Assembly (NCBI GenBank): GCA_021786265.1
Contig: JAJYNP010000262.1
Span: 1 to 10,033 of the forward strand
Reading direction: 5' to 3'
Origin: Chloroflexota bacterium
GTDB lineage: Bacteria > Chloroflexota > Limnocylindria > Limnocylindrales > CSP1-4
DNA length: 10,033 bases
A program made the translations under genes and the position numbers. Below are positions 669 to 9,705 of this stretch, piece by piece (position 1 is the first letter of the stretch; each line of letters opens with the position of its first letter). The notes under the pieces were generated by a model that ran no database searches, was not told the DNA's origin, and worked only from the letters and a program-made list of their open reading frames with translations.

Positions 669-744
669 TGGAGCGGGAGACGGGATTCGAACCCGCGACA
701 TCTTGCTTGGGAAGCAAGCACTCTGCCAACTGAGTTACTCCCGC
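669..744 (-). tRNA. tRNA-Gly (anticodon CCC)
   Basis: The minus strand folds into a standard 76-nt cloverleaf. The acceptor stem is GCGGGAG/CTCCCGC with discriminator T and an encoded CCA (669-671). The anticodon stem CTTGC/GCAAG encloses the loop TTCCCAA, so the anticodon is CCC, reading GGG codons. The T-arm carries GGTTCGAATCC. The acceptor sequence is typical of bacterial tRNA-Gly. It is transcribed away from the GAF-GGDEF locus and towards the carbonic anhydrase gene. Confidence 0.97.
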
Positions 745-789: not shown

Positions 790-1418
790 CGCATGCCGGT
801 CGAAGCGCGCCTCAACACCATGGCCCCATAGCGGTTGTTGAACGCCCCGAACGCATCGAGATCGAACATGATCGCGGCGAGGGGCGCTCGTTCGGCTTCC
901 GCCACGCGCGCCCGGGCGGCAGCAAGTTGGGCGAGCGCCTCGTCGAAGTAGCGGCGGTTGTGGAGTCCGGTCAGCCCGTCGCGGATGGCGAGCTCCGCCA
1001 CCTCGCCGTGGAGCCAGGCGGCGGCGATGGCCAGGGTCGCCTCGTTGGCCAGCAGCGAGAGCGCTTCGAGCTCGAGCTCGAGCTCGCGGAACGGCTGCTC
1101 CGCATCCACCCGGGCCAGCGCGAGCGCCCCGATCGGCTCGCCGTCGCGCAGCAGCGGGAGCCCCAGGGCCCAGGCATAGCGGCGCGCCGCATTGTGCGCG
1201 GCGACGGCCGGCGGGAAGGCCTCGCCCGCGTAGTCGGCGACCTGCACCCGGGCCCGCTCCCTGATGCCTCGCCCCGAGAGGCTCTCGCCAGGCCGAGTGA
1301 CGTGGCCCACCGATCCGGCGCTGCCCTGCTCCGCCCGGACCACGAAGTCCCCGTTCCGGCGGTCCGGCACGACGAGCCCCACGAGATCGGCCGGCACCAC
1401 GCCATCGAGCCTATGCAC
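786..1418 (-). pseudogene. Inverted fragment: GAF domain plus N-terminal half of GGDEF
   Basis: On the minus strand the frame reads, from about GTG 1418, PADLVGLVVPDRRNGDFVV and the rest of a GAF domain. A Glu/Leu-rich helix and then IRDGLTGLHNRRYF, MFDLDAFGAFNNRYG follow. That is the conserved first half of a GGDEF domain, with the metal-binding Asp of FDLD. The frame leaves homology right after RYG and runs into an unrelated tail, ending at TGA 788-786. Upstream of 1419 the same frame is merely antisense to the other half of GGDEF, and no RBS precedes GTG 1418, so independent expression is doubtful. This is the segment that appears inverted. Confidence 0.8.
822..829 (+). repeat. Left arm of the inversion repeat (GGCCCCAT)
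   Basis: The arm reads GGCCCCAT. The reverse complement of the right arm is GGTCCCCAT, so the two match except for one missing T. Homology to the GAF-GGDEF gene switches strand here. The missing base is also what puts the restored gene out of frame by one. Confidence 0.65.
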
Positions 1419-1763
1419 GATGGGGACCCAGCCGGCGATCAGGTGCTGCGTACCTTCGGGGCGCTCCTTGCCCGACGCTTCCGCAGTTCCGAACTCCTCG
1501 CACGCTACGGCGGCGAGGAGTTCGTGGCGGTGCTGCCAGGGGCCACCCGGGCGGCGGCCTGCGCGATCGCCGAGCCGGTCCGGCGGGCGCTCGCGGCCAC
1601 CCCGATCGAGCCGATCGCCGGGGAGCGTGTGTCGGTCACGGTGTCCGCTGGCTGCGCGGTCCCCGAAGGCCCCGACGTGCGGCCCGAGGCGCTCATCATA
1701 GCGGCCGATGTCGGGCTCATCATGGCCAAGCGGGCCGGCCGCAACCGGGTGGGCGCCGTCTGA
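1413..1763 (+). pseudogene. Plus-strand fragment: C-terminal half of GGDEF domain
   Basis: From ATG 1413 the frame gives 116 residues: DPAGDQVLRTF, RRFRSSELLARYGGEEF (GGEEF codons 1509-1523), and the terminal AGRNRV seen at the end of GGDEF domains. It lacks the first half of the domain, including the metal and substrate residues of FDLD, so it cannot be a working cyclase. The longer open frame extending leftwards to 387 runs through the tRNA gene and antisense to the GAF region and is not a real N-terminus. No convincing RBS precedes ATG 1413. Confidence 0.8.
1420..1428 (-). repeat. Right arm of the inversion repeat (ATGGGGACC)
   Basis: ATGGGGACC is the inverse of the left arm. Joining AACCGCTATGGGG from the left end of the segment to ACCCAGCCGGC on the right flank gives RYGDPAGD in frame, the expected GGDEF sequence. 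No longer homology is visible between the arms, which is short for a classical site-specific invertase site. Confidence 0.65.
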
Positions 1764-1838: not shown

Positions 1839-1908
1839 GGTCTGGCCTCGGTCGCATCCCGGCAACAGCATTCACCCGCTTGACTCGCGAGCGCACAATA
1901 TACGCAGT

Positions 1909-1933
1909 TGTTCGAACACGTTCTGTGATCACA
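1909..1933 (+). promoter_or_regulatory. Double palindromic operator upstream of the sugar operon
   Basis: Two perfect 10-bp palindromes, TGTTCGAACA (1909-1918) and TGTGATCACA (1924-1933), lie 15 bp apart centre to centre, about 85-110 bp before the operon start. An imperfect copy of the second (GTGAATCAT, 1944-1952) follows. TTCG/CGAA half-sites are known in operators of DeoR/GlpR-type repressors, and the operon encodes one. That link is inference. Candidate promoter hexamers overlap the palindromes (TTCGAA 1911-1916, 17 bases, TATGGT 1934-1939), and a TTGACT at 1880 has no well-spaced -10; none is convincing alone. Confidence 0.55.
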
Positions 1934-2017
1934 TATGGTTCCAGTGAATCATAGACGTGACATTGCGCAGTCCGCGCCTCGGGGCCGAGGACGCGGGAAC
2001 CCACTGGAGGGGCATCC

Positions 2018-3382
2018 ATGCAGCGACCGCGACGGGCATGGCCAACCATTCTGGCCGCCGCAACCCTGGCCCTGGCGGCCTGTTCGGGCAGCGCGACGAG
2101 CGCGCCCAGCGAGGGATCTGCAGCCTCGGCGCCAGCGCCGGCCGGGTCGGCCGCCGCGTCCGCCCCGGTCCACCTCACGATGTGGCAGCAGTGGGGCGGC
2201 GGGCACGAGGAGGCAGCGCTCAAGCAGATCATCCAGGACTATGAGGCGCTCCACCCCAACGTCACGATCGACGAGGTGCCGGTCACCGACGACTCGAAGA
2301 TCCTGACCGCCATCAGCGGCGGCAACCCGCCCGACATCATCGACCTGGTTTCGTCCCTACCCCTCGGCGAGTGGGCCTCGAAGGGGGCGCTCATGCCGCT
2401 CGATTCGCTGATCACCCAGTCAGGGATCGACACCAGCGTGTACGTGCCGGCCGCGCTGCAGGCCATGACGGTGAACGGCAAGATCTACGGGCTCCCCTTC
2501 ATGGACTTCAACGTCGGGCTCGTCTACAACAAGGCGCTGTTCGCGGCGGCGGGGCTGGATCCTAAGAGTCCTCCCAAGACGATTGAAGAGCTCACCCAGG
2601 ACGCCTACAAGCTCACCAAACAAGATGCCAGCGGGCGGATCACCCAGCTGGGCTTCCTGCCCGAGTACCCGGGCCCGTCAAATGGGCAGGTGTGCACCCT
2701 AGAGGACACCGGCTGGCTGTTTGGCGGCGGCTGGTACGACCAGTCGAGCGGGAAGGTCACCGCGAACCTGCCGCAGAACATCAACGCTCTCGCCTGGGAG
2801 ACCAGCTTCTACCAGAAGTACGGCGCCCAGAACATGGCGAATTTCCTACAGTCGGCAGGTGCCTACCTAACTGCCCAGGATCCACTCGAGTCGGGCAAGC
2901 TGGCCATGGTGTACGACGGGCCGTGGGCTATCGCCTTCGCCCAGTCGAACGTGCCGGATCTCGCCAAGAACCTCGCCGCCGCGCCCTTCCCGGCGCCCGC
3001 GGCGATGCCCCAGCTCACCGGCACGAGCTTCATCGACTCCAACCCGCAGGTGATCCCGGCGGGCTCCAAGCACGCGGCAGCGGCGTTCGACTTCATTCGG
3101 TACGAGACCACGAACCCGCAGGTCACCGCCACCTTCGCCCAGCTCATCCAGAACCTGCCGCAGCTCAAGCAGACGCCCTCCTTCCCGCTGGCGAACGACC
3201 CGAACTTCCAGGTCTTCATCAAGGAGGCCAACTCCTCCAACGCCCACGTGTGGCCGCAGCTCCCCTTCTCCACCGAGTACGGGGTCAAGCTCTGCGAGGC
3301 GCAGCAGGCGGCGCTGTACGGGAAGTCCACCCCCCAGGCGGCGCTGGACAACCTACAGTCGCAGATGGCTGCAGCCCACTAG
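2018..3382 (+). CDS. Sugar ABC transporter substrate-binding lipoprotein (CUT1, family 1)
   Basis: This 454-aa extracellular lipoprotein would capture a sugar and deliver it to the two permeases that follow. Residues 1-22 are a lipoprotein signal peptide with lipobox LAAC (C22). An Ala/Ser/Pro linker runs to ~50, and the mature fold begins at VHLTMWQQWGG. The family-1 solute-binding signature GLPFMDFNVGLVYNKALF is at 158-175, and NPPDIIDL lies upstream of it. Length is normal for CUT1 binding proteins. The start is set by GGAGGGG (2006-2012) five bases before ATG 2018. It is the first gene of the operon, behind the palindromic region. The ligand cannot be read from sequence; the neighbouring SIS and ROK genes suggest a sugar or amino sugar. 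Confidence 0.93.
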   Translation: MQRPRRAWPTILAAATLALAACSGSATSAPSEGSAASAPAPAGSAAASAPVHLTMWQQWGGGHEEAALKQIIQDYEALHPNVTIDEVPVTDDSKILTAISGGNPPDIIDLVSSLPLGEWASKGALMPLDSLITQSGIDTSVYVPAALQAMTVNGKIYGLPFMDFNVGLVYNKALFAAAGLDPKSPPKTIEELTQDAYKLTKQDASGRITQLGFLPEYPGPSNGQVCTLEDTGWLFGGGWYDQSSGKVTANLPQNINALAWETSFYQKYGAQNMANFLQSAGAYLTAQDPLESGKLAMVYDGPWAIAFAQSNVPDLAKNLAAAPFPAPAAMPQLTGTSFIDSNPQVIPAGSKHAAAAFDFIRYETTNPQVTATFAQLIQNLPQLKQTPSFPLANDPNFQVFIKEANSSNAHVWPQLPFSTEYGVKLCEAQQAALYGKSTPQAALDNLQSQMAAAH

Positions 3383-3400
3383 ACACGCGCTGATCTCACG

Positions 3401-4312
3401 ATGACCTTGCGAACAGGAACGCCGAGGGCGGCCCGCCAGGTTGCAGCCGCCCTCCCCTTCCTGACGCCCTGGCTGATCGGGCTCCTCGGGCTCATCGTCA
3501 TCCCGGTCGCCCTGGTCGTGTACTGGAGCTTCACGGACTTCAGCCTGCTCCAGGCGCCCCACTGGGTGGGTGCCCAGAACTACCAGAACCTGGTGACCGA
3601 CCCGACCTTTTGGACCTCGGTCGGCAACACCCTCTACATCACGCTCATCGGGGTGCCGGCGGGGGTGGTGATCGGGCTCGGCACGGCGCTCCTCCTGAAC
3701 CGGGACGTGTTCGCCCGCGACTGGCACCGAGCGGCCATCTTCCTGCCCGCGATCGTACCGCCGGTGGCGGGCGCGATCATCTGGATCTGGATCCTGAACC
3801 CCGACTACGGGCTGCTCAACGCGGTCCTCTCGGTGTTCCACGTGCCGCCGCTCGGGTGGCTGGGGGACCCCTCATGGGCCAAGCTCGCGGAACTCCTCAT
3901 CGTGCTCTGGGGCTCCATCGGCCAGATCATGATCGTGTTCTTGGCGGGGCTCAAAGAGGTCCCCGAGCAGCTCTACGAGGCAGCGTCGATCGACGGCGCC
4001 TCCGCCTGGGACCGCTTCCGACACATCACCCTGCCCATGCTCGGCCCGGTGCTCTTCTACAACGTGGTGGTGGGCGTGATCTTCTACCTGCAGTTCTTCG
4101 AGCAGGCCTTCGTGATCACCTCGAAGGACCTCGGCGCGCCGGTCAACTCCACCCTGTACTACACGATCTACCTCTATGAGAACGCCTTCGACTTCCTGAA
4201 GATGGGCTACGCGGCGGCCATGGCCTGGGTGCTGTTCTTGACCACCCTGGCCGTCACGGTCCTCTTCTTCGCGTTCCAGCGCCGGCTCGTCTTCTACGCG
4301 GGGGAGGATTGA
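3401..4312 (+). CDS. Sugar ABC transporter permease (UgpA/MalF type)
   Basis: This 303-aa inner-membrane permease forms half of the CUT1 channel. Six hydrophobic segments are visible, at roughly residues 17-44, 73-98, 110-133, 160-185, 211-234 and 267-291. The cytoplasmic EAA loop that docks the ATPase is well conserved: EAASIDGASAWDRFRHITLP from residue 193. It follows the binding-protein gene by 18 bases and overlaps the next permease by one base (TGATG), so translation of the two is probably coupled. No strong Shine-Dalgarno precedes ATG 3401; coupling from the upstream gene may compensate. Confidence 0.93.
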   Translation: MTLRTGTPRAARQVAAALPFLTPWLIGLLGLIVIPVALVVYWSFTDFSLLQAPHWVGAQNYQNLVTDPTFWTSVGNTLYITLIGVPAGVVIGLGTALLLNRDVFARDWHRAAIFLPAIVPPVAGAIIWIWILNPDYGLLNAVLSVFHVPPLGWLGDPSWAKLAELLIVLWGSIGQIMIVFLAGLKEVPEQLYEAASIDGASAWDRFRHITLPMLGPVLFYNVVVGVIFYLQFFEQAFVITSKDLGAPVNSTLYYTIYLYENAFDFLKMGYAAAMAWVLFLTTLAVTVLFFAFQRRLVFYAGED

Positions 4313-5214
4313 TGGTCGGCGTGGCACGGACCCTCCGGAGTGCGGGTGGGGCGCGTCGAGGCAACCTCGGGCACTGGGCCCGTCGCGGGTTGCTGCAGGT
4401 CACCCTCGTGGTCACCTCGGTCATCTTCCTGCTGCCCCTGCTCTGGATGGTCTCGAGCTCGCTCAAGGGAAACGGGGAGATCTTCGTCTTCCCGCCCGAG
4501 CTGCTGCCAGCCCACCCACAGTGGGGCAACTACGCGCAGGCGATGAGCTACATCCCGTTTGGGACCTACTTTCTCAACAGCGCGCTCGTCTCGGCCGCCA
4601 CGGTCGCCGGTACCTTGGTCTCCTGTGTCCCGGCCGCCTACGCCTTTTCGATCCTGCGCTGGCCGGGACGGGACCTGGTCTTCCGCCTGGTGTTGGCGAC
4701 CATCATGCTGCCGTTTCCGGTGGTCATGGTCCCCCAGTACCTCATCTTCCGGAACCTGGGCTGGCTGGGCACGTTGCTGCCCCTCGCGGTGCCGCCGTTC
4801 CTGGGCGCGTTCATCACCCCCTACTTCGCCTCCAGCCTCGCCATCTTCCTGCTGCGCCAGTTCATGCTCGGGCTGCCGCGCGACCTGATCGACGCCGGGC
4901 GGATCGACGGGGCCGGCGACTGGCGTCTGCTCTGGCATGTGGTTGTGCCGCTCTCGAAGGGCAGCATCGTGACCGTCATCCTCTTTTCGTTCCTGACCAG
5001 CTGGACTGCCTTCGTGGCCCCGCTCATCTTTCTCACCAAGGGCAACCTCTTTACCCTGTCGCTCGGGCTGCAGCAGTACCAGAGCCTGCACTTCACCGCC
5101 TTCAACTACCTGATGGCCGCGTCGTTCGTGTTCTGCCTGCCGGTGCTGGTGGCATTCGTACTTGCCCAGCGCTACTTCGTGCAGGGCATCTCGCTCACCG
5201 GCACCAAGGGATAG
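4312..5214 (+). CDS. Sugar ABC transporter permease (UgpE/MalG type)
   Basis: This second membrane subunit has 300 aa with about six hydrophobic segments. The N-terminal LLPLLWMVSSSLKGNGEIF is typical of MalG-type permeases (helix 1 followed by the SLK periplasmic start). The EAA loop at residues 194-214 is divergent, DAGRIDGAGDW with Gly for the second Ala of EAA, but the RIDGA core is present. GGGGAGG (4301-4307) sits four bases before ATG 4312. A TTG at 4309 would be too close to it, so ATG 4312 is chosen. The ATG overlaps the previous stop. No ATP-binding subunit gene lies in the window; CUT1 importers often borrow a shared MsmK/UgpC-type ATPase encoded elsewhere. Confidence 0.93.
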   Translation: MVGVARTLRSAGGARRGNLGHWARRGLLQVTLVVTSVIFLLPLLWMVSSSLKGNGEIFVFPPELLPAHPQWGNYAQAMSYIPFGTYFLNSALVSAATVAGTLVSCVPAAYAFSILRWPGRDLVFRLVLATIMLPFPVVMVPQYLIFRNLGWLGTLLPLAVPPFLGAFITPYFASSLAIFLLRQFMLGLPRDLIDAGRIDGAGDWRLLWHVVVPLSKGSIVTVILFSFLTSWTAFVAPLIFLTKGNLFTLSLGLQQYQSLHFTAFNYLMAASFVFCLPVLVAFVLAQRYFVQGISLTGTKG

Positions 5215-5224
5215 GAGGCCAGCC

Positions 5225-6001
5225 ATGGACGCCACCGAGCGGCACCAACTGATCCTCGAACAACTGGCCACGCGCGGGGAAGTCAGCGTAGAGGAAGTCA
5301 GCCAGCGAGCCGGCGTCTCGCCCATGACGATCCGCCGCGACCTCGATGAACTCGATCGTTTGGGCGCTGTCAAACGAGTGCGAGGGGGCGCGGTCAGCGT
5401 ACTGTCTCGCGGCTACGAGCCGCCTTTCGCGGCACGGGCCAAGCTTCATGTCGAGGCCAAGGAGCAGATCGCGGCAGCGGCAGCCGAACGAGTCCACGGG
5501 GGCCAGACGCTCATACTGGACGCAGGGACCACCACCCTCGCCCTCGCGCGCCGCCTACGCGGCGTGCACGGCCTCACGGTAGCCACCCCCAGCCTGCGCA
5601 TCGCGAGCGTCCTCGCCGATGAACGTGACACCAGGGTGATCATCGTCGGCGGGGTGGTACGGGCCGGCGAGCATTCGGTGGTGGGTTCACACGCCGTTGA
5701 GCACCTCGCGCAACTGCGCTTCGATCGCTGCTTCCTCACCATCTCGGGGGTCGAGGCGCGCAGCGGGCTCACCGAGTGGAACCTCGATGACGCGGCAACG
5801 AAGACGGCCGCCATCGCCAGCAGCCGCGAGTGCGTGGTGCTAGCGGACGCGAGCAAGCTGGGCAAGGTGGCCTTCGCGCGGGTCGCACCGCTCGAACAGA
5901 TCGACCTGCTCATCACCGATGCCGCTGCCGTCGCCGACCAGCTCACGCCACTTCGCGCCGCTGGTCTGTCGGTGCTCGTGGCGGGCGTCGACATCCCCTG
6001 A
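5225..6001 (+). CDS. DeoR-family transcriptional regulator of the sugar operon
   Basis: The product is a 258-aa cytoplasmic regulator. Residues ~5-57 are a DeoR-type winged helix-turn-helix: VEEVSQRAGVSPMTIRRDLDEL, then the wing with VKRVRGGAV. Residues ~75-235 form the DeoR C-terminal sensor domain, related to sugar-phosphate isomerases. It has the phosphate-binding DAGTTT (99-104), VIIVGG, and the late DASKLGKVAFARV motif. Family members are mostly repressors released by a phosphorylated sugar intermediate. AGGAGG (5213-5218) overlaps the preceding stop and lies six bases before ATG 5225. Its place inside the operon suggests autoregulation through the palindromes at 1909-1933. The specific effector is unknown. 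Confidence 0.92.
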   Translation: MDATERHQLILEQLATRGEVSVEEVSQRAGVSPMTIRRDLDELDRLGAVKRVRGGAVSVLSRGYEPPFAARAKLHVEAKEQIAAAAAERVHGGQTLILDAGTTTLALARRLRGVHGLTVATPSLRIASVLADERDTRVIIVGGVVRAGEHSVVGSHAVEHLAQLRFDRCFLTISGVEARSGLTEWNLDDAATKTAAIASSRECVVLADASKLGKVAFARVAPLEQIDLLITDAAAVADQLTPLRAAGLSVLVAGVDIP

Positions 6002-6021
6002 GGGAGGCCTTTGCCTTGGGA

Positions 6022-7038
6022 ATGACGAACTACGTCGCCGAGATCCGCGATCAGCCGGCCCGCCTCGCCGCGCTCCTCGAGAGTGACCCAGCGCGGGCTG
6101 TGGGATCGCTCAGGCTCTCCCGCTTTCGGCGCGTGGTGCTGAGCGGGATGGGAGCCTCTCATTACGCGACCTACCCGGCGTGGCTCGCCCTCGTGGCCGC
6201 CGGCGCGCCGGCCTGGTGGCTGGAGGCCGACGAGCTGCTCCACCACGCGTCAGGACTGCTGGGGCCCGACACGCTGCTCTGGCTCACCTCCCAGTCGGGA
6301 TGCAGCGCGGAGATCCAGGCCCTCGTGGACGGAGACGGACGACGAGCTCGGGCGCTCATCGCGGTCACCAACGACCCGGCGAGTCCCCTGGCAGCCGCTG
6401 CCGATGTGCTCGTGGAGACACTCGCCGGCCCCGAGGAGGCCGTCAGCACGAAGAGCTACACGAACTCCCTCGTCGCCGCACTGCTCCTCGCGCATGGGCT
6501 CCTCGGAGCGCCGGACCCACGAGGCGAGCTGGTCTCCGGCCTGGCAGCGCTCGAGAGGCTTCTCGGTGCAGGATGGGAGGACGCCCTCGACGCGACCGAG
6601 CAAGCGATCGGGGCGCCCCGGCACGTGGTGGCGCTCGCCCGGGGTGCCGCGCTGCATGCCGCCTGGACCGGGGCCCTGGTCCTGAAAGAGGCGGTCCGCC
6701 TGCCAGCAGAGGGGATGAGCGCCGGGCAGTTCCGCCACGGCCCGCTCGAACTTGCCGGACCGAGCCTCGGGGCGGTCATGCTCGAGGGCCCGTCGGGCAC
6801 GGCCGCGCTCAACCGCGCCCTCGCCGAGGAGCTGGTAGCCGCGGGCAGCCGCGTGGCCTGGATCGGCGGCCCTGCTCCGCGCGGGACGCTCCCGCTCCCC
6901 ACCCCGGCCGCCCACGGCCTGGGCGTCCGGGCGACCGAGGTCGTGCCCTTCCAGCTCGTGTCGGTGGCCCTGGCCCGGCGGCTCGGGATTGAGCCCGGCG
7001 AGTTCGTCCACTCGAGCAAGGTGACCCTGAGCGAGTGA
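6022..7038 (+). CDS. Double-SIS-domain sugar-phosphate isomerase/deaminase (AgaS / NagB-II / GlmS-C-like)
   Basis: The product is 338 aa with two SIS folds and no glutaminase domain, so it is not a GlmS synthase. The first SIS (residues ~35-170) has GMGASHYA and the phosphosugar loop SQSGCSAE (90-97). The second (~205-320) has LKEAVRLPAEGM (K222, E223) and GQFRHGPLE (H239), the region holding catalytic residues in GlmS-type isomerases. The C-terminus ends in SKVTLSE, as in this family. Likely reactions are deamination or isomerisation of an amino-sugar 6-phosphate, or deglycation of a fructosamine 6-phosphate; sequence alone does not decide. ATG 6022 is 14 bases from GGGAGG (6002-6007). TTG 6016 in the same frame has an 8-base spacing and may be the true start. 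The stop overlaps the next gene by four bases (GTGA). Confidence 0.88.
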   Translation: MTNYVAEIRDQPARLAALLESDPARAVGSLRLSRFRRVVLSGMGASHYATYPAWLALVAAGAPAWWLEADELLHHASGLLGPDTLLWLTSQSGCSAEIQALVDGDGRRARALIAVTNDPASPLAAAADVLVETLAGPEEAVSTKSYTNSLVAALLLAHGLLGAPDPRGELVSGLAALERLLGAGWEDALDATEQAIGAPRHVVALARGAALHAAWTGALVLKEAVRLPAEGMSAGQFRHGPLELAGPSLGAVMLEGPSGTAALNRALAEELVAAGSRVAWIGGPAPRGTLPLPTPAAHGLGVRATEVVPFQLVSVALARRLGIEPGEFVHSSKVTLSE

Positions 7039-7979
7039 ACGAACCGCTCGAGCCGGTCGTCGCGGGAGTCGATCTCGGCGGCACCAACGTGCGCGTCGGC
7101 CTAGTGACCGCCGCGGGGGCGATCCGCGCGTTCCGCACGGCGTCGTTTGATGCGAGGCGGGGCGCGGGACCCGGCCTGCGACGCATCGCGGCCCTCGTGC
7201 GCGCCTGCCTGCACGCGGCGGGCGACCTGCCTCTGGTCGCCCTCGGGATCGGGGCCACCGGACCGCTCGACTCGCGCTCCGGGCGCATCCGCAACCCCTA
7301 CACCCTCCCCACCTGGGCGGACGTCGACGTCCGGGGTCCGCTCGAAGCCGAGCTCGGCGTCCCGGTGCGCCTTGAGAACGACGCGGTGGCGGCCGCGCTG
7401 GGCGAATGGTGGCAGGGTGCCAGGCAGGGCGCTCAGTGCATGGCCATGGTGACCTTCGGGACCGGAATTGGGGTGGCCGTGGTGCGGGCAGGGGAACCCT
7501 ATCGCGCAGCCGGCGAGGCCCACCCGGCGGCGGGGCACTTCCTCGTGGATCCGTCCGGTCCGCGCTGCTACTGCGGGACCCAGGGGTGCTGGGAGCCACT
7601 CGCCGCCGGTCCGGCCCTGGAGCGTCTGGCCCAAGCGAGTGGAGACCCCGACCTCGCGGGCGCCACCGCCGCGGACGTGGCGCGGCTGGATCACGCCGGC
7701 CACCCGGGCGCCCGCCGGATCGTGGCCGCGGCCTCCCGGCATGCCGCCCTGGGGCTCGTCAACGTGGTGGCTGCCTATGCACCGGAGGTGATCGTGCTCG
7801 GCGGCGGCGCCATGGGGGCCTATCGGCGCCACCTCGAGGAGATGCGGGCCGTCGTGGGCGGGTCACAACCCTATCTGCCGCCCGGGGACACCCGGATCGT
7901 CGAGGCGCTGCTGGGCGATCACGCCGGCGTGCTGGGGGCGGCGTATGGCGCGCTGCGACTCGAAACGGGGGTGCCATAG
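7035..7979 (+). CDS. ROK-family sugar kinase
   Basis: This is a 314-aa cytoplasmic kinase starting at GTG 7035, which overlaps the SIS stop (GTGA), so the two are almost certainly co-translated. It has the ROK landmarks in order: N-terminal phosphate loop VDLGGTNVR, GIGATGPLD, the catalytic Asp in ENDA (D116), FGTGIGVAVV, and the ROK zinc site with H168 and C178, C180, C185 (GHF...CYCGTQGC). EP follows that site. ROK enzymes with this zinc site are usually hexokinases for glucose, N-acetylglucosamine, N-acetylmannosamine or similar, making the 6-phosphate. The N-terminus has no DNA-binding domain, so it is a kinase and not a NagC/XylR-type repressor. It probably phosphorylates the sugar brought in by the ABC importer, feeding the SIS enzyme. 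Confidence 0.92.
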   Translation: MNEPLEPVVAGVDLGGTNVRVGLVTAAGAIRAFRTASFDARRGAGPGLRRIAALVRACLHAAGDLPLVALGIGATGPLDSRSGRIRNPYTLPTWADVDVRGPLEAELGVPVRLENDAVAAALGEWWQGARQGAQCMAMVTFGTGIGVAVVRAGEPYRAAGEAHPAAGHFLVDPSGPRCYCGTQGCWEPLAAGPALERLAQASGDPDLAGATAADVARLDHAGHPGARRIVAAASRHAALGLVNVVAAYAPEVIVLGGGAMGAYRRHLEEMRAVVGGSQPYLPPGDTRIVEALLGDHAGVLGAAYGALRLETGVP

Positions 7980-8006
7980 AACTGATGTGGGTCGCCGCAT
8001 AGCGAC

Positions 8007-8038
8007 CGTCAAAAGGAGGGGTCTATCGAGTTTTGACG
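8007..8038 (+). repeat. Inverted repeat CGTCAAAA / TTTTGACG in the leader of the BMP gene
   Basis: Perfect 8-bp arms (8007-8014 and 8031-8038) flank a 16-base centre that contains AGGAGGGG. The repeat lies between the ROK stop and the BMP start. It could be an operator or an RNA hairpin; AT-rich arms stand out from the GC-rich surroundings. The SD-like centre has no start codon at proper spacing. Confidence 0.4.
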
Positions 8039-8085
8039 TCCGCCGCCTGTCCCAGACACCGACCTTCACCGCAGGGAGATGGCAC

Positions 8086-8607
8086 ATGGACACCGTTCGA
8101 GGGAGGCGCCTATCCCTGCTGGCCACGCTCGCCAGCATCGCGCTCTTGGCCACCGCCTGCAGCAGCGCGGCGACGAGCGCACCGGCGGCCTCGAGCGGCC
8201 CGGCACCGGGGTCGGCTGCTGCCACGGCCGCGAGCGTCGCCCCGGTCGCGCCAAGCGTCGCGGCATGTAGGCTCCCCACCTCGGGGGCACCTGCCGCGAG
8301 CACGGCCGCCGCGGCGGCGAGTGGTGCCCCGGTCGCCTCGACCCCGCTCAAGGTGGCCCTGGTAGCCCCCAGCGCCCGCAACGGCCTGAGCTGGACCCAG
8401 ACCATGGTGGCCGCGCTGCAAAGCCTCCAGCAGCGCGACAACCTGCAGATCGCCATCTCGGACAACCAATTCGTGGTCTCCGACGCGGGTAACATCATCG
8501 GCAGTACGCGACCGAGGGCTACAACCTGATCATCGCCCACGGGTCACAGTACGGGTCCACCATTCAGCAGCTGGCCCCGCAATTCCCCAAGGTCTCGTTC
8601 GCGTGGG
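8086..8607 (+). pseudogene. BMP-family (Med/TmpC) lipoprotein, frameshifted and truncated by an IS
   Basis: ATG 8086 follows GGGAG (8074-8078) by seven bases. Residues 1-25 are a lipoprotein signal with LLATAC (C25); an Ala/Ser/Pro-rich linker runs to about residue 83. The mature part, LKVALVAPSARNGLSWTQTMVAAL, is the start of a BMP periplasmic-binding domain (purine-nucleoside or sugar-binding lipoproteins). After DAGNII (to ~8499) the reading frame shifts by one base. In the shifted frame QYATEGYNLIIAHGSQYGST and FPKVSFAWVSG continue the family pattern, while the original frame stops at 8527-8529. The gene then ends exactly at the insertion sequence, after about 174 of the usual 350-400 residues. 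The remaining half is not in the window. Confidence 0.85.
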
Positions 8608-8630: not shown

Positions 8631-9705
8631 TCATGCCGCGACCTCGTATTCGTGGATCAAGCCGCCCAGCCGATCATGCCGCAGGACCTGGGCTGGAGAC
8701 GCTCGCGCCGCGGGGAGCGGGGTGGGCGGGGCTGCGGGCGGACGGAGTCCGAGATTGCGGTGCGGGCGGTGCGCGTTATAGTGCGCCACGTACTCGCGTA
8801 CGACGGCCTCCAGTTGCCGGCGCTGCACGATCACGATCCAGTCGAGGCACTCCCGCCGAAAGGTGCCGATCCAGCGCTCGCAGATCGCGTTCGCCCTGGG
8901 CGCCTGCACCGGCGTCTTGATCACCCGCAGGCCTTCCCCACGGAACACGGCGTCGAACGAGCCCGCGAAGACCGCATCCCGGTCGTGGATGAGGAACTTC
9001 CGTTCAGAAAGCGCATCGCCCAGTCGGCTCGCGAGGTTGCGCGCCTGCTCAGGTCACCCACGCTGCGGTGGGATGAGCGGTGACCCCGGCGAGGTGCACC
9101 CGACGCGTGTCGAGCTCGATGAAGACGAGCACATACAGGCGGCGGAAGAAGACCGTGTCGACGGTGAGGAAGTCCGCCGCCAGCATATGCCTCGCCTGCG
9201 ACCGCAGGAAGTCGCGCCAGCGCAGGCCGAAGCGCCGACCCGCAGGATCCAGCCCAGCTTGGGCGAGGACCCGGCGGATCGTCGTGGCCGCGACCCGCAT
9301 CCCCAGCCCCTGCAGCCCGCCCCCGATCCGCAGGTACCCCCAGCGCGGGTTCTCCGGGGCGAGCCGGACGATCAGCGCGACGAGCGCAGGATCGAGAGGT
9401 GGACGACCGCGACCCCGCCTCTTGTACGTCCAGCGCCGTGCCACCAGCCGACGGTGCCAGCGCAGCAGAGTCTCGGGCGAGGCGAAGAAGCCGGACCAGC
9501 GCCGTCGGGGAAGCAGCCGTCAGGCCGCGGCAAGGAAGATCCGATCGGCAGCGCAAAGCTCGGGCCGTGCGACCTGGCGACGCAGGATCGATAGCTCGTG
9601 GCGCAGCACGACGATCTCGGGGTCCTTGGAGCGCCCCGACCGAAAACGCAGGGCCACGAGCTCGAACGTGCGCCGGACCAGCAGATAGAGCAGCGATACG
9701 AGCAC
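8631..9705 (-). pseudogene. DDE (rve integrase core) transposase, broken by an in-frame stop and a frameshift
   Basis: Read from ATG 9705 the gene spans about 358 codons, the usual size for this group. The N-terminus (EIVVLRHELSILRRQVARP) is the helical leader common to these transposases. TGA 9520-9522 interrupts the frame after FLAAA. The same frame then resumes with RLLPRRRW, ETLLRWHRRLVARRW and the HTH region PRWGYLRIGGGLQGLG. The catalytic core begins at AADFLTVDT (first Asp) and IELDTRRVHLAGVT. An extra base near 9051 shifts the frame after HPTAAWVT. The new frame holds EQARNLASRL, LIHDRDAVF (second Asp) and RANAICERW (Glu, 34 residues between). It ends with YNAHRPHRNLG and the stop at 8631-8633. 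All three DDE residues survive, but no single frame encodes them. Confidence 0.88.

Follow-up and report, generated by a model that had tools for sequence, protein, structure and literature searches.

A GAF-GGDEF diguanylate cyclase gene on a contig from a Chloroflexota bacterium lies in two halves on opposite strands. As the explanation we lean towards a one-time, microhomology-associated inversion in a gene that was 5'-truncated and dispensable. The gene, beside one for tRNA-Gly, was probably first shortened by loss of upstream coding sequence, which in the relatives examined encodes another GAF domain and/or MASE1. An inversion of 590 bp (830–1419) between two 6-bp inverted repeats would then have hit it, splitting the catalytic domain across the strands so that this copy would give no complete GGDEF domain. 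A single illegitimate event at the short inverted repeats, by fork template switching or by microhomology-directed rejoining, is the likely mechanism. As a one-time event, the locus presents a short inversion with both halves still readable, and its main use is as a test case for deciding, in contigs from metagenomes, between an inverton and a decaying gene.

Layout of the split gene

The window, meaning the whole stretch of 10,033 nucleotides that was analysed, begins with a partial carbonic anhydrase gene (minus strand), followed by a tRNA-Gly(CCC) gene at 669–744 (minus strand, identified with ARAGORN) and the split GAF-GGDEF gene. Beyond the cyclase is a sugar ABC-transport operon encoding a solute-binding protein, two permeases, a DeoR regulator, a SIS protein and a ROK kinase. 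The right end is occupied by a broken lipoprotein gene and then by transposase pieces.

In Pfam comparisons the GAF domain and positions 1–52 of the GGDEF profile match the minus strand (786–1424, 37 bits), and positions 51–161 of the GGDEF profile match the plus strand (1419–1763, 74.4 bits). The plus-strand part carries the RYGGEEF motif and the stop codon. The first-pass annotation had described GGDEF halves on opposite strands and an inversion of about 830–1419 inside a GAF-GGDEF gene; the first is confirmed in the sequence given, and the second is supported by the right junction. When 830–1419, the minus-strand segment of 590 bp with the GAF domain and profile positions 1–52, is turned in a script, the right junction rejoins and a single GGDEF match of 123.1 bits covers positions 1–161 of 161. 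As sequenced, no single strand carries a complete GGDEF domain with a GG[DE]EF motif; one is present only with the segment turned. That the halves belong to one gene is favoured by their meeting point, at positions 52 and 51 of the profile, and by the joined protein, which is 69% identical to the database protein P0001, with 97% of the query covered.

Neither half contains an internal stop codon. The other frames in the same stretch hold only 0 to 9 stops, so the open halves say little about the age of the event, stops being scarce in this DNA. The G+C content by codon position is similar in both halves to that of the neighbouring genes. Within the GAF domain, at 1066–1086, a GAGCTC run is repeated and gives two extra residues (ELELELEAL) compared with aligned relatives.

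Junction repeats and left flank

At the junctions, a script located an inverted repeat that is exact over 6 bp, with CCCCAT at 824–829 as its left arm and ATGGGG at 1420–1425 as its right arm (both read on the plus strand). The 9-bp repeat put forward previously needs a base that is absent from the sequence. In pairs of breakpoints drawn at random in 2000–8000, 400–800 bp apart, inverted identity of at least 6 bp occurred in 634 of 200,000 trials. The junction microhomology exceeds this random-breakpoint expectation. Inverted 6-mers were also found at 171 of 198,896 position pairs in 700–1800 (400–800 bp spacing), so a 6-bp repeat alone marks nothing. The junction repeat may perhaps resemble the fim repeats of E. 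coli.

The left flank of the inversion (793–829, plus strand) had been read as a short N-terminus (MPVEARLNTM), preceded by a ribosome-binding site and joined to the GAF domain. This reading is not confirmed. The residues of the supposed N-terminus do not resemble those of relatives at that place, and the stretch taken for the ribosome-binding site overlaps a probable promoter of tRNA-Gly. In the sequence as given, the left end of the turned segment does not share the frame of the ATG at 793, because the base needed for the 9-bp repeat is absent. The gene length of 323 codons plus stop is arithmetic on an altered sequence, the left side being frame-shifted as given. The site in question, on the minus strand at 761–789 (TTGACG, 17-nt spacer, TAGACT), is the probable promoter of tRNA-Gly(CCC). 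It is the sole sigma-70-like site in 600–2020 in a scan that accepted spacers of 16–18 nt, and shuffled sequences (n = 50) gave a mean of 0.0. By eye, the tRNA-Gly gene in the closest genome found (G074) is preceded by TTGACG, 15 nt and TAGAAT, a spacer that falls outside the 16–18 nt of the scan.

The proposed N-terminus was also compared with a profile of the equivalent positions of 73 relatives, in blocks of 8, 12, 16 and 20 residues. In the frame of the first-pass annotation, 67–89% of window positions score equally well, and in the frame as sequenced 34–73% do. The adjoining IVHRLDGVVP ranks at the top of 17,404 window positions. Its first five residues alone are equalled by 2.4% of positions, so short residue blocks have limited power in this profile.

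An alignment had hinted that the left flank could be a linker before the GAF domain, and this candidate was rejected. Scored against a gapless profile that was built from 34 sequences with the frame rule of the tblastn comparison of relatives' upstream parts (see below), its best ranks are poor, at 238th of 16,515 window positions (14 residues), 427th of 15,509, 533rd of 15,323 and 941st of 13,633. Other frames of the flank outranked it in three of the four blocks, the best being 41st of 13,633 for the longest block.

Relatives and the state of the window copy

The turned protein resembles GAF-GGDEF diguanylate cyclases of Chloroflexota. P0001 (GAF-GAF-GGDEF) shares 69% identity over the turned protein and the GGEEF motif. 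Four loci, L139 (MASE1-GAF-GGDEF), L145 (MASE1-GAF-GAF-GGDEF), L146 and L147 (both with long N-terminal extensions, in frames of 682 and 531 codons), share 56–59% identity over the turned protein. These relatives lie on a single strand and are extended upstream (by GAF and/or MASE1 in P0001, L139 and L145), whereas in the window copy 590 bp are turned around and a search for upstream domains found none. Among the matches listed, P0011, P0030, P0033, P0034, P0038 and P0040 bear Chloroflexota, Chloroflexi or Limnocylindria/Limnocylindrales names, and the more distant P0053, P0083 and P0086 carry the names of Baltobacteraceae, Sulfotelmatobacter and Binatus.

A tblastn comparison did not find the upstream parts of P0001 and of the relatives' loci in the window. 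The best E anywhere is 0.010, and the only match in the left flank has an E of 0.39. Three of the 21 loci (L170, L178 and L181) had no usable frame and were dropped from this comparison. With the segment turned, the product would therefore probably still be a truncated protein. Short relatives without upstream domains, as listed, are P0003 (302 aa), P0004 (328 aa) and P0011 (302 aa). P0011 is named as partial, and at locus L147 a protein almost the same as P0004 has a longer reading frame. The window gene may also be a naturally short form of the cyclase, as P0003 may be. From relatives at 56–69% identity, we infer that the truncation preceded the inversion.

In the order, no close sister with the gene was found among 126 genomes searched at E up to 1e-80; four of them matched, with at best 59% identity. 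The same was true of the class (177 genomes, E up to 1e-60), with 37 matches in 36 genomes, again at best 59% identity; one of these 37 carries an internal TAA. As such thresholds could miss split genes, the halves were queried separately in the 177 genomes, with E up to 1e-25 for the N-half and up to 1e-16 for the C-half. The entry point to this survey was L001, a Chloroflexi MAG. The N-half occurs at 55 places in 51 of the 177 genomes and the C-half in 83 genomes. Fifty-four of the 55 N-halves continue into a C-half on the same strand, and the remaining one (G090:C367) stops at a contig edge. None of the 55 was found followed by an opposite-strand C-half. The adjacent same-strand C-half was matched by eye for 50 of them, and four of the other five were confirmed on fetched sequence, one having a masked stretch between its two halves. 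With 54 N-halves uninverted, the uninverted order is very probably ancestral. Comparison with homologous loci, a check suggested at the outset, found no inverted homologue among these N-halves of the class.

The closest genome found, G074, is collinear with the window over 1878–8607 at 87–88% identity. Its best matches to the cyclase reach only 40–43% identity (E 1.7e-28 and 1.2e-27). As G074 keeps the operon at 87–88% and has no closer cyclase match, the gene looks dispensable. Sequence to the left of 1878 was not found in G074 apart from the tRNA, which is on another contig, and short matches. The collinearity starts at 1878, and the gene order between the cyclase and the sugar operon differs.

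Constraint on the window copy was considered in an alignment of 120 proteins, from which P0002 had been excluded beforehand. Thirty-one were dropped for gaps, leaving 89 near-full-length proteins including that of the window. Among 89 columns with at least 85% conservation, the window copy differs at 10 (median 3), and it ranks 13th of the 89 proteins, tied with two others. The departures include an invariant aspartate replaced by E, at a position we take to be the I-site, and a 95% conserved H replaced by D beside the breakpoint. Twelve proteins depart more often, and all of these are lower in the list (P0091–P0120) and more distant. The near relative P0003 departs at 9 conserved columns, so the departures give only a hint of relaxed constraint on the window copy.

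Artefact, switch or chance

The main rival to a one-time inversion is an assembly chimera, in which read or amplification chimerism, or faulty assembly of a metagenome contig, would have produced the inversion or linked the cyclase to the tRNA-Gly flank. We consider this unlikely, at a level that still calls for serious attention. The near-identical database entries P0002 and P0121 correspond to the two halves in inverted order, and each is known from one contig of 10,389 bases, as an artefact would be. The left flank is unlike native upstream sequence, and the alignment of the lipoprotein gene with G074 has a gap of one base near 8497, a small indel where the coding DNA of this contig is conserved in other respects; both points also fit an artefact. 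However, P0002 counts two member sequences, though on one contig, and the operon's main reading frames are open (2018–7979) in a stretch that is collinear with G074. An artefact would also have to make two junctions 590 bp apart both wrong while sharing the same 6 bp, and assembly graphs at the usual word lengths are not confused by a repeat as short as 6 bp. The preferred reading, a one-time inversion, takes the contig to represent real DNA and the event to have occurred once. The first-pass annotation had added, as a caveat to its own proposal of a switch, that a one-time rearrangement or an assembly inversion could account for the locus, and this caveat describes it better than the switch does.

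Intragenic inversions are a known class, and Chanin et al. are said to have described intragenic invertons in Nature in 2024 (as referenced in PMC11868660). The window is like these in that the inversion lies within coding sequence, but it has repeats of 6 bp, no recombinase found in the window and no sign of reversibility. The switch that had been proposed is a reversible intragenic inverton, with an invertase flipping 830–1419 to turn the cyclase on and off, and we judge it improbable. The inversion is balanced, with both breakpoints within one inverted repeat, and the right junction rejoins exactly, as a switch would predict. The arms, however, are exact over only 6 bp, and the repeats of invertible sites are put at 10–40 nt in one report (PMC11892184) and, in another, at typically 10–20 nt, often with mismatches (PMC5903667). 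With the segment in the other orientation, the right side of the gene is restored, but the left side is out of frame in the given sequence and unlike relatives, and the left flank there is a probable tRNA promoter. No recombinase family was detected in the 16 window stretches scanned against Pfam. An invertase encoded elsewhere in the genome is possible, as the latter report allows for invertons (PMC5903667). Furthermore, no other orientation is present among the listed protein-database matches, and none of the 55 N-halves in the class was found followed by an opposite-strand C-half.

The protein-database search with the full-length query (7,996 candidates scored) returned no un-inverted relative above 69% identity among the best 120 of 1,735 hits. 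The C-terminal query (492 candidates, 23 hits) also returned none. The missing un-inverted allele is an absence at the sensitivity of these searches and no proof.

A parallel that favours the switch is pdcB of Clostridioides difficile, a c-di-GMP enzyme under inversion control whose recombinase is likewise unidentified in the account given (PMC9286219). The element that inverts there measures 174 bp, has imperfect 19-bp repeats and sits 840 bp upstream of the gene, and both of its orientations occur (PMC9286219). The window inversion instead cuts the coding sequence. In a true switch, inversion within the gene itself would directly control a c-di-GMP enzyme, in contrast to pdcB and similar switches located upstream. 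The more specific proposal, that this bacterium inverts the cyclase coding sequence between minimal repeats with a recombinase encoded elsewhere and that the OFF form was assembled, seems to us more improbable still.

For the one-time inversion that we prefer, a possible precedent is found in yeast, where template switching between short inverted repeats is described as turning the spacer (PMC8604942). The likeness is that a spacer between short inverted repeats has been turned in both cases, but that paper concerns yeast and the window is a bacterial contig. Two unrelated GGDEF fragments adjoining by chance can scarcely be credited, since, although both are GGDEF pieces and the gene order left of 1878 differs from G074, their ends abut at positions 52 and 51 of the profile and they join into a protein 69% identical to P0001 over 97% of the query.

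In viral contigs, neither version of the right junction has an exact match; 58 loci match at identities of 29–45%. In plasmids, four records cover 4–7% of the query, in addition to one tRNA match.

At the right end of the window, the lipoprotein gene (8086–8607) is named from its start, and a Pfam scan of its first 147 residues at E up to 0.01 gave no match. The alignment to G074 extends through it to 8607, with the one-base gap near 8497 among others, and ends there, just before transposase-bearing sequence. On the minus strand at 8631–9705 is an apparently broken transposase of the IS481/IS3 kind in separate frames, at 8631–8948 (with rve_3), 9049–9444 and 9520–9705 (without a match). The Pfam scores of the pieces in 8631–9444 are below the curated cut-offs. 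For the frame at 9049–9444, the five plasmid matches listed are from Streptomyces at 50–54% identity, and Streptomyces accounts for 39 of the 51 records with a match.
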